Of a stretch of DNA of 41,617 nt, positions 17,071 to 21,022 are shown one piece after another (positions within the stretch are counted from its first letter, which is position 1; each line of letters opens with the position of its first letter). Below the pieces are notes generated by a model. That model was not told the DNA's origin. It saw only the letters and a list, made by a program, of their open reading frames with translations, and did not search any database. A program made the position numbers and the translations under genes. The DNA is from Atribacterota bacterium (GTDB lineage Bacteria; Atribacterota; Phoenicimicrobiia; Phoenicimicrobiales; Stramentimicrobiaceae), in contig JAQVGY010000005.1 of the NCBI GenBank assembly GCA_028696495.1, positions 1 through 41,617 of the forward strand, read 5' to 3'.

Positions 17071-19248
17071 TTATTTAAAATTAGATCTTTTATTATAACG
17101 ATTCCTAAAATCTTTATCATTTTTTTCAGGTTTTGGCATCAATTCTTTCTTGCTCAGGTCGATCTTGCCCTGCTGGTCAATTCCAATAACCTTTACCTGA
17201 ATCTCATCATCCATATTTAAAACATCTTCTACTTTACCAACATGAGAATAAGATAGGTTTGATATATGTAAGAGCCCCTCTACCCCGGGAAGAATCTCTA
17301 CAAATGCCCCATATTTGGTTATTCTTTTCACCTTCCCATTATAAATCTCCCCGACTTTTACTTCCTTAACCAAACCTTCGATATGGTATTTAGCTCTCTC
17401 TATCTTTTCCATGCTATCAGCAGTAATAAAAATTTCACCATTATCTTTTATATCGATACAGGTGCCGGTCTCTTCAATTATCTTCTTTATGTTCTTGCCG
17501 CTTGGACCAATTATATTTCCAATCTTATCTGTGCTAACTTTTATAATAAGCATCTTAGGAACATAGTTAGACAGCTCTGCTTTTGGTTTGGAAATTGTTT
17601 TATTCATTTTTTCAAGTATATATAAGCGGCCTTTTCTTGACCTTTCGAAAATATCCCGCAATATATCAATAGATACACCATCTATTTTCAGGTCCATCTG
17701 AATTGCTGTTAAACCATCGGCTGAACCGGCTGCTTTAAAATCCATATCACCATAATGGTCCTCAATACCAAGAATATCGGTTAATATTTCATATTTATCA
17801 TCTTCTTTAACCAATCCCATGGCAACACCGGCTACCGGTTTACTTATGGGCACTCCTGCATCCATTAGAGATAAGCTGGCTCCACAAACACTAGCCATCG
17901 ATGATGAACCATTAGATTCCAGAATTTCAGATACCACACGAATAGTATAAGGAAATTCTATCTCTTCGGGAATTAGTGCTTTCACAGCCTTTTCAGCCAG
18001 GGCACCATGACCAATCTCTCTACGTGATTGAGACCTTCTCGGCTTGATATCTCCTACCGAGAAGGGTGGAAAATTGTAGTGTAAATAAAATTTACGGGTG
18101 GTATCCTCTTCCAGAGTATCTACAGACTGCTCATCCCTAACAGAACCCAGGGTAGTAATAACCAGAGCCTGTGTTTGCCCTCTGGTAAAGAGGGCACTTC
18201 CATGCACTCTCGGCAAAATACCTATTTCACATTCAATATTCCTAATCTCATCAGGTTTACGGTGATCCACTCTCAATCCCTTTTCAATAATCAAACCCCT
18301 CATTAATTCCTGGCATATGGAATCATATACTCCATTGATAAGGGAGACATTGAGTTCTTCATCACTACTCAGGTCATTATTTAATCTTGAGATGATTTCC
18401 TCTTTTAAATTTTCTAATCTTTCTTCTCTTTCGGCTTTATCTCTGGTAGTTAATGCGTTTTCTATCTGCTCGGAATAATCTTTTTTGATTAGCTCATAAA
18501 ACCTATTTTTTTCTTCCAACAAAGATTGTTCCAATTGCCAGGTTTGATTAATCTTCTCGGGATTTATCTCTTTAACAAATTCAATTTGCATTTCCACAAT
18601 TTTTTTAATCTCTGCCTGAGCCACCCCGATGGCTTCTATCACTATTTCCTCAGATAATTCCTTAGCTTCCCCTTCTAACATTATAACTGAGTCTTTTGTT
18701 CCAGCAACAACTATATTGAGTTCACAGTCAGCCAGCTCTTCTACCGTAGGATTTATTAAGAAATTACCTTCTGAATAGCCGACCCGTATTGCTGCAATTG
18801 GTTTATAAAAAGGAATATCAGAAATATAGAGGGCACATGATGCACCAATAATGGAAATAATATCTGGAAGGTTGCTCTGATCATAAGATAAGACCGAAGT
18901 GATTATCTGAACATCATTGCAGTATCCCTCAGGAAACAGGGGACGTATCGGTCTATCAATCAGTCTGGAAGTCAGGATGGCATTTTCGCTTGGTTTCCCT
19001 TCACGTTTAAAAAATCCGCCTGGTATTTTACCGGCAGCATAAAACTTCTCTTCATAATCTACAAGTAGAGGGAAAAAATCGGTCCCTTCCTTGGGTTCTT
19101 TTGAGGCAACTGCGGTAACAAGTACTACCGTTTCACCACAGGTTACAGTAACTGAGCCATTGGCCTGTTTTGCCAGTTTGCCTGTTTCTATTTTTACTTT
19201 CTTACCACCAACTTCTATTTCTTTACTATGGATAATTTTATCGGTCAT
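17071..19248 (-). CDS. pnp: Polyribonucleotide nucleotidyltransferase
   Basis: 725 aa; two RNase PH domains (FFKREGKPSENAILTSRLIDRPIRPLFP), KH (IGNIIGPSGKNIKKI), S1 (GAFVEILPGVEGLLHISNLS); follows rpsO. Confidence 0.98.
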   Translation of the reverse strand: MTDKIIHSKEIEVGGKKVKIETGKLAKQANGSVTVTCGETVVLVTAVASKEPKEGTDFFPLLVDYEEKFYAAGKIPGGFFKREGKPSENAILTSRLIDRPIRPLFPEGYCNDVQIITSVLSYDQSNLPDIISIIGASCALYISDIPFYKPIAAIRVGYSEGNFLINPTVEELADCELNIVVAGTKDSVIMLEGEAKELSEEIVIEAIGVAQAEIKKIVEMQIEFVKEINPEKINQTWQLEQSLLEEKNRFYELIKKDYSEQIENALTTRDKAEREERLENLKEEIISRLNNDLSSDEELNVSLINGVYDSICQELMRGLIIEKGLRVDHRKPDEIRNIECEIGILPRVHGSALFTRGQTQALVITTLGSVRDEQSVDTLEEDTTRKFYLHYNFPPFSVGDIKPRRSQSRREIGHGALAEKAVKALIPEEIEFPYTIRVVSEILESNGSSSMASVCGASLSLMDAGVPISKPVAGVAMGLVKEDDKYEILTDILGIEDHYGDMDFKAAGSADGLTAIQMDLKIDGVSIDILRDIFERSRKGRLYILEKMNKTISKPKAELSNYVPKMLIIKVSTDKIGNIIGPSGKNIKKIIEETGTCIDIKDNGEIFITADSMEKIERAKYHIEGLVKEVKVGEIYNGKVKRITKYGAFVEILPGVEGLLHISNLSYSHVGKVEDVLNMDDEIQVKVIGIDQQGKIDLSKKELMPKPEKNDKDFRNRYNKRSNFK

Positions 19249-19294
19249 AAATTAAGATATCTCCTTGAATAGGTATACATTATTTTAAATCTCA

Positions 19295-19561
19295 TTACTT
19301 TCTGAGATTCAATTGTTCAATTAATTTGCGATATTTTTCAACATCATTGCTCTTTAGATAATTTAGGAGATTTCTTCTTTTCCCAACCATTCTCAATAAT
19401 CCATATTTAGAATGCTTATCTTTCTTATTCTCATTTAGATGTTTGGTCAGGCTGTTTATTTTCTCAGTTAAAATAGCTACCTGAACCTCTGTTGAACCAG
19501 TATCCACATCATGGTGCTGGTATTCTTTTATTATTTTATTTTTTAATTCTTTCTTAACCAT
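19295..19561 (-). CDS. rpsO: 30S ribosomal protein S15
   Basis: 88 aa; [27 protein letters not shown] and [22 protein letters not shown]. Confidence 0.98.
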
Positions 19562-19777
19562 TTTTGCTAAACTCTCCTTCTGCCTAATGGTAATTCTATA
19601 TGCTAACTTTTTTAAATCATATATCTCTTAGTCAAATATGTTTGAATTTTTTCTTATTTCCTTTAACTAGTCTAAGCATGATGTCTGCGAGATTGGCAGG
19701 AAAGTAGGCTTTATAAATGGTATATCCTAAAATGGGGATTACTTCCTTCTTCAAACTCTTCTGCAATCTTACATCAT
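19562..19777 (-). promoter_or_regulatory. Structured 5' leader of rpsO; candidate S15-responsive or other cis-regulatory RNA
   Basis: Nested complementary segments: AUGAUGU(19777-19771)/ACAUCAU(19684-19678), AGAUUG(19769-19764)/CAAUCU(19695-19690), GGAAGUA(19746-19740)/UACUUUCC(19706-19699); two further hairpins before the AUG. Confidence 0.6.
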
Positions 19778-19783
19778 TTTAAT

Positions 19784-19812
19784 ATTTTATCACAATTAAG
19801 AAATTCATTCAA
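19784..19812 (-). promoter_or_regulatory. Sigma-A-like promoter for rpsO-pnp
   Basis: Minus strand TTGAAT (19812-19807) - N17 - TAAAAT (19789-19784). Confidence 0.6.
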
Positions 19813-20017
19813 ATATATTTTATAAAGTTCAATAATTAAAATTATATACCATTAAATAACAAATCAATCCATTGAAGAGACTTAGAATACCTAACTGAAG
19901 AAATAAATCTGTTTTTAATGGCAATTTGTAATATCTGCTCTTATATTTTATTAAATATCCATCTTTTTTTACTAAAAGATTCTTATGGTTTATTCCTTTT
20001 TTATCATGATATTTTGA

Positions 20018-21022
20018 CTAAATTTTATTGTTTTTGAAAAAAACACGGGCAACCAATTCATCTTTTCTGATTTGCTGAGTTAAGCTGGTAGTGTCGACAA
20101 ATTTTTGTTCATCTCTTATTCTTTTCAATAAAAAGGCGCGTATCTTTTTCTTGTATATATCTATTTCATAATTAAAGATGTGTGCTTCAACAGAAATCTC
20201 TTCTCTTATACTAATCATTTCATTTTGAAAAGTAGGTCTAAAACCAATATTTACCAAACCTTGATATTTTATTCCATCAATTTCTACCAGGGCAACATAT
20301 ACTCCGTTTTTGGGTAATAATTTTTCCGACGGAAATTTTATATTAGCAGTAGGAAAAGATAGAATATTTTTCCCTCTCTTGTGACCATGTACAACCTCTC
20401 CACCTATATAGTAGGGATAGCCTAACATGCGATTAGCCTTTTCTAAATCTCCTTCTCTTATAAGTTTTCTAATAAGTGTACTGCTGATTATTGTCCCATC
20501 ATCTGTTTTTACTGGCTCCAAAATAAAATGTTTAAAATTATAGTTTTTAGCTAACAATTTTATAAGATTTATATCACCTTTTTTTTGATAACCAAAATGG
20601 TAATTATATCCCACAAAAACGGCACCCATATGGAACTTATTTAATAAAACTTTTTTTATAAAATCCTCACCACTTACTTTCTTCAATTTTTCTGAAAAAT
20701 TAAGGACATAGACCTTGTTAATTCCCAAATCCTTTATATGTCTTACCTTTTCTTCTAATGTGGTAAGAAAATAGAGGTTATCAATTTTATTGACAATTAT
20801 CTCCGGATGAGGGTCCAGCAAAATAACAGAGCTCACGGCATTGTCTTTTTTTGCCATATCGACACATAAACTTAATATGGACTGATGTCCCAGATGAACT
20901 CCATCAAAGAATCCTAAAGCTATATATGATAATTTATTTTCACTATTGAAAAAATTATTATTAATAAAATAATCATATGATATATATTCCATGTTAGCCC
21001 TGTTTGCCTCGATTCTAACCAA
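20018..21022 (-). CDS. ribF: Bifunctional riboflavin kinase / FAD synthetase
   Basis: 334-aa ORF; ALGFFDGVHLGHQSIL, GYNYHFGYQKKGD, GKNILSFPTANIKFP motifs. True start may be the internal ATG (MEYISYDYF). Confidence 0.95.
   Translation of the reverse strand: MVRIEANRANMEYISYDYFINNNFFNSENKLSYIALGFFDGVHLGHQSILSLCVDMAKKDNAVSSVILLDPHPEIIVNKIDNLYFLTTLEEKVRHIKDLGINKVYVLNFSEKLKKVSGEDFIKKVLLNKFHMGAVFVGYNYHFGYQKKGDINLIKLLAKNYNFKHFILEPVKTDDGTIISSTLIRKLIREGDLEKANRMLGYPYYIGGEVVHGHKRGKNILSFPTANIKFPSEKLLPKNGVYVALVEIDGIKYQGLVNIGFRPTFQNEMISIREEISVEAHIFNYEIDIYKKKIRAFLLKRIRDEQKFVDTTSLTQQIRKDELVARVFFKNNKI

Follow-up and report, generated by a model that had tools for sequence, protein, structure and literature searches.

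In this Atribacterota bacterium, the rpsO-pnp mRNA very probably begins with a conserved structured RNA of ~105 nt, judged by sequence comparison among relatives. The element (positions 19668-19781, minus strand) was found in the window, the whole 41,617-nt stretch that was analysed, which comes from contig C47; the draft genome has 1.09 Mb and is about 90% complete. Its position suggests that it is probably a cis-regulator of rpsO, the gene for ribosomal protein S15, and the best reading, held with slightly better than even confidence, is a putative S15 autoregulatory leader that evolved independently. As such it represents one more variation on a familiar phenomenon and not a new kind of system. 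If this reading is true, S15 feedback would have yet another RNA solution, one that apparently arose independently.

The genes on the minus strand are arranged in the order infB-rbfA-nrnA-truB-ribF, leader, rpsO, pnp. The identities of ribF, rpsO and pnp are backed by NCBIfam, and the names infB, rbfA, nrnA and truB are a reading of the translations. The rpsO gene (19295-19561, minus strand) encodes an S15 protein of 88 amino acids (TIGR00952, 128.7 bits vs a cut-off of 63.65). Polynucleotide phosphorylase is encoded by pnp (17071-19248, minus strand; TIGR03591), 46 nt downstream of rpsO, and a terminator-like site was not found on the minus strand of the intergenic gap. The same holds for positions 19200-20050 on this strand, leader included, where no hairpin followed by a U-run was present. 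An intrinsic terminator, an attenuator and a terminator-type riboswitch in the leader were therefore rejected, and control of translation is likelier than attenuation.

The short, terminator-free gap is also what would be expected if the leader controlled pnp, through PNPase and/or RNase III acting on the 5' structure, with rpsO merely the first cistron. The autocontrol of E. coli pnp provides the analogy. This explanation is very unlikely, since the helices of the element are short and interrupted and do not form a long duplex of the RNase III type, and since the element lies directly ahead of rpsO and not of pnp.

The promoter that the original prediction placed ahead of the leader, TTGAAT-N17-TAAAAT, is present at 19784-19812 (minus strand), also has an extended -10 (TGN) and is conserved in relatives. 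Transcription is predicted to start at about 19777. The same promoter is found 249-255 nt 5' of the rpsO start codon in all five same-genus genomes and 143-183 nt 5' of rpsO in three other genera, and the sister family has it ahead of rpsO in the form TTGAAGG...TTATGATAAAAT. In all 7 species with the element, it lies downstream of this conserved promoter, as expected for the 5' UTR of a transcript with this predicted start. This extended -10 promoter is retained at rpsO across the order (L011-L019 included), whereas the leaders that follow it are entirely different.

Folding of the single sequence gives little indication of structure. The 216-nt leader folded alone reaches -32.6 kcal/mol vs -31.1 kcal/mol for shuffled sequence (z -0.40), which is not beyond chance and, by the refuting criterion given with the original prediction, would count against it; the 5' 115 nt folded alone have a z of -1.6. 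In a leader this AT-rich, the energy of one sequence is a weak test, and comparison was used for this reason. The genus alignment consists of this species and four others, with leaders of nearly equal length. In these five species, the RNAalifold consensus of the first ~105 nt (~120 columns) has an energy of -28.3 vs -10.7 +/- 2.9 for 200 column shuffles that preserve gaps and conservation classes (z -6.2, 0/200). Outside the element, the same five species show little signal: the z value is -0.9 in the promoter region and -1.55 in the stretch from the element to the start codon. When two species of a second genus are added, the 7-species alignments made with three aligners have z values of -6.4, -6.4 and -4.4. 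Seven sequences are all that is available for the element. The claim of a conserved structured RNA ahead of rpsO that begins at the predicted start and matches no Rfam family is well supported.

These alignments support the overall structure well, but not the exact helix registers. The fold would be a long imperfect hairpin composed of P1, a conserved core P2, P3 and an inner hairpin, and the complementary arms described earlier all lie where they had been placed. P1 pairs AUGAUGU (19771-19777) with ACAUCAU (19678-19684; all arms on the minus strand). In G009, a member of the second genus, different bases re-form P1 as GAUAGUG/CACUAUC, with the register shifted. Cognate arms reach -8.1 and -9.2 kcal/mol (the latter in G009), compared with -4.5 and -4.9 kcal/mol when the arms of L001 and G009 are exchanged. 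L004 has a weak P1 or none and G008 an imperfect one, and when the register of the first genus (g1) is imposed on P1, covariation over the 7 species is weak, being reached by 100 of 500 shuffles. Near the predicted transcription start, inside P1 (19769-19777), 6 of the 7 leaders open with a start triplet followed by a stop triplet (ATGATGTAA or GTGTAA), possibly by coincidence.

P2, the conserved core, pairs AGAUUG (19764-19769) with CAAUCU (19690-19695). It is paired in 97-98% of cells and is nearly invariant, so its sequence is conserved too, and for most of its pairs covariation is therefore uninformative. The GU/AY pairs just outside P2 are kept in 7/7 species, with one pair changed on both sides. 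The register of P3 is ambiguous. Its 5' arm can be AGAGU (19755-19759), which is AAGGA in relatives and resembles a Shine-Dalgarno (SD) sequence, or it can be GGAAGUA (19740-19746), the arm originally proposed, whose use excludes AAGGA/UUUCC. The 3' arm, UACUUUCCU (19698-19706), is also the best anti-SD of this leader. The third helix as first drawn, GGAAGUA/UACUUUCC, fits the genus alignment, but AAGGA/UUUCC fits about equally well and shares the 3' strand. At alignment pair 27/87 (A4 alignment) within P3, GC, UA, AU and GU all occur. The inner hairpin P4, AUCC...GGAU (19724-19739), is present inside the element as claimed, and one of its C-G pairs becomes U-A in L004 and L005.

The 15-pair core, made up of P2, the outward GU/AY pairs and the inward P3 pairs, is paired in 91.4% of cells (reached by 14/500 shuffles), with both sides changed in 7 cells (5/500) and a covariation score matched by 9/500. 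Compensatory changes are present, but they are few. Sliding the partner strand by 1-3 columns lowers the pairing to 35-47%. These values bear on the explanation that the pairing is chance complementarity in AT-rich sequence, with blocks conserved for transcription start, ribosome loading or another cause. The single-sequence z of -0.40 and the near invariance of P2 would fit such an explanation, but the z values of the consensus fold, the rebuilding of P1 in G009 and the collapse of pairing from 91% upon sliding make it improbable.

The 3' part of the leader behaves differently from the element. The hairpins originally predicted near the SD, at 19676-19627 and 19623-19597, did not hold up, being mostly unpaired in sister species in the region whose consensus z is -1.55. 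The SD itself, AGAAGGAG (19574-19581, minus strand), is invariant in the 5 members of the genus. A few nucleotides 5' of it (region 19559-19592), ACCAU is likewise invariant in the genus and is complementary to the start region AUGGU. The hairpin that these two would form is seen in genus g1 and lost in g5 and g2, and it was rejected.

The distribution of the element was obtained with two covariance models, R1 and R2, which match this leader at 19668-19781 and 19667-19781. R1, trained on g1 alone, was run on 50 whole Atribacterota genomes. Beyond its training set it matches G008 (E 6e-7) and G009 (E 7e-7), both of genus g5, and the next best match has an E of 0.013. Because it was trained without the second genus, R1 predicted a position never shown to it, although conserved sequence blocks contribute to the match alongside structure. 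Significant R1 matches among the 50 genomes are confined to rpsO leaders, and the same is true of R2. Both g5 matches have the conserved promoter on their 5' side and the rpsO SD on their 3' side; G008, whose contig stops at the SD, also shows the end of ribF upstream. In genera g2-g4 of the family and in the sister family, neither model has a significant match, though the promoter is conserved. Pairings resembling P1 that were spotted by eye in L008 and L010 lacked support and were discarded. The relatives compared are Candidatus Atribacteria MAGs, and a scan of named genomes for further relatives returned only close relatives already in the comparison set. The absence of detectable matches in the other genera and the sister family makes this rpsO-pnp operon leader look young and lineage-specific.

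In G009, an insertion of several hundred nucleotides (L124, G009:C45, about 22600-22200) places the element about 560 nt from the start codon and roughly 540 nt from the SD. It contains repeats such as GTATACCGTATTACGTATAACG and GAGATTGCTTCGTC...CTCGCAATGACA. A stretch upstream of rpsO in L013, TTGCTTCGTC...TCGCAATGACA, resembles this insertion, which is missing from the sister species G008. In L009 (G005), which belongs to another genus of the family, the first 98 nt of the rpsO transcript form a different strong 5' hairpin (z -3.2, 0/200), with a similar promoter ahead and the same first bases, GAATGATGTA.

Rfam 15 was searched with all families, including the known leaders of S15 and other ribosomal proteins. 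No match reached the gathering score anywhere in the window, and below that score only chance matches occur within 19200-20020. This search, proposed with the original prediction, leaves the element as one previously unlisted.

A conserved 5' stem could also serve constitutively, stabilising the transcript or shielding its 5' end from decay without responding to a ligand. Consistent with this, the structure begins at the predicted transcription start, and in other genera of the family the promoter is retained ahead of different or shorter leaders, the L009 hairpin being of the kind expected if a 5' stem is all that matters. However, P2 and its flanks are conserved beyond the needs of a stem (26 invariant columns in the 7-species alignment), which suggests a protein or conformational partner, and the element is found at rpsO only. 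A purely protective stem is therefore considered unlikely.

In the preferred reading, that of an S15 leader, the first ~105 nt of the mRNA would act as a lineage-specific regulatory RNA from the transcription start onward. S15 present in excess over 16S rRNA would bind the element, and the translation of rpsO, and hence of pnp, would be lowered. In the free RNA, a pyrimidine strand would be tied up in P3. S15 would favour a conformer in which this strand, either the P3 3' strand or the UUCCUU after P1, is paired to the SD. This SD switch is doubtful and is the weakest step of the proposal, the anti-SD signal being modest. In this leader, UACUUUCCUG pairs with the SD at -10.5 kcal/mol. A scan of the element against the SD region gives the P3 3' strand (CUUUCCU) with the SD as the best duplex, with a five-species mean of -7.8 kcal/mol (4/200 column shuffles). 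The reversed 5' part, used as a control, gives -7.4 vs -7.8 for the true sequence, and thus the pyrimidine tract alone explains much of the signal. In L003, L005, G008 and G009, where the P3 3' strand is poorer, UUCCUU just 3' of P1 is the better anti-SD site, and each of the six leaders tested has its best anti-SD within the 3' half of the element.

S15 is, by a small margin, the favoured ligand, given the position of the element at rpsO, the known S15 leaders of other phyla and the ready emergence of S15 regulators (PMC5100602). S15 leaders are described as differing between phyla and arising easily (PMC4137082, PMC5100602, PMC7247131). The S15 of this lineage retains T21, G22, Q27, H41, D48 and S51 (numbering read by eye). 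Against an S15 leader, genera g2-g4 manage without a detectable element, and the G009 element is far from its SD. Known S15 leaders imitate the GU/GC stack or the three-way junction of 16S rRNA (PMC7247131, PMC4684408). Neither a conserved GU/GC stack nor a three-way or multi-stem junction was convincingly found in the consensus of the seven leaders. A G-U wobble at A4 columns 26/88 is kept in 6 of 7 sequences, with the neighbouring G-C in two only and the P3 register ambiguous.

The S15 loop at residues 50-53 (19403-19414, minus strand) reads HSKY, vs HSRR in the best-matching solved homologues. Among 19 relatives (L001-L019), HSKY occurs only in g1 and g5, the two element-bearing genera; the loop is HSKH in the other genera of the family and mostly HSKQ in the sister family. 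This co-occurrence may reflect common descent only, if g1 and g5 are sister genera. One specific version of the proposal would have the leader represent a new class in Atribacterota that responds to S15 while imitating neither known part of the rRNA site: an internal AAGGA would hold CUUUCCU in the ON state, S15 would free CUUUCCU to pair with the true SD, and the element would have co-evolved with the HSKY loop. In this full form the proposal is improbable. Because the element is evolutionarily shallow, occurring in two genera and undetected in the rest of the family, the gain of the regulator could be dated and could be tested against S15, a protein that itself differs between genera that have the element and those without it.

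Within the literature searched, no ribosomal protein leader of rpsO is named or described for the phylum Atribacterota. The S15 leaders validated in E. coli, Geobacillus, Thermus and Rhizobium radiobacter (PMC4137082, PMC4684408) are likewise structured 5' UTRs ahead of rpsO, and they share with this element a narrow, lineage-bound distribution and variable helices around a conserved core. The Atribacterota leaders differ in sequence and fold, and neither a pseudoknot nor a three-way junction nor a conserved GU/GC stack was detected in them. This candidate element is about 90-100 nt from the SD and not over it. A long spacer is nonetheless common to this element and the alphaproteobacterial S15 leader, where up to 400 nt separate the S15-binding helix from the RBS helix (PMC4137082). 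Leaders predicted in Actinobacteria, Chlamydia, Flavobacteria and archaea (PMC4137082, PMC7247131) were described for other phyla. The actinobacterial and chlamydial predictions place a helix over the RBS or start codon, whereas the present leader has no conserved helix near its SD. These predicted leaders also resemble the present one in their basis: they are comparative, are tied to a single gene, have a ligand assigned from position and, in some cases, come with limited sequence diversity, as here.
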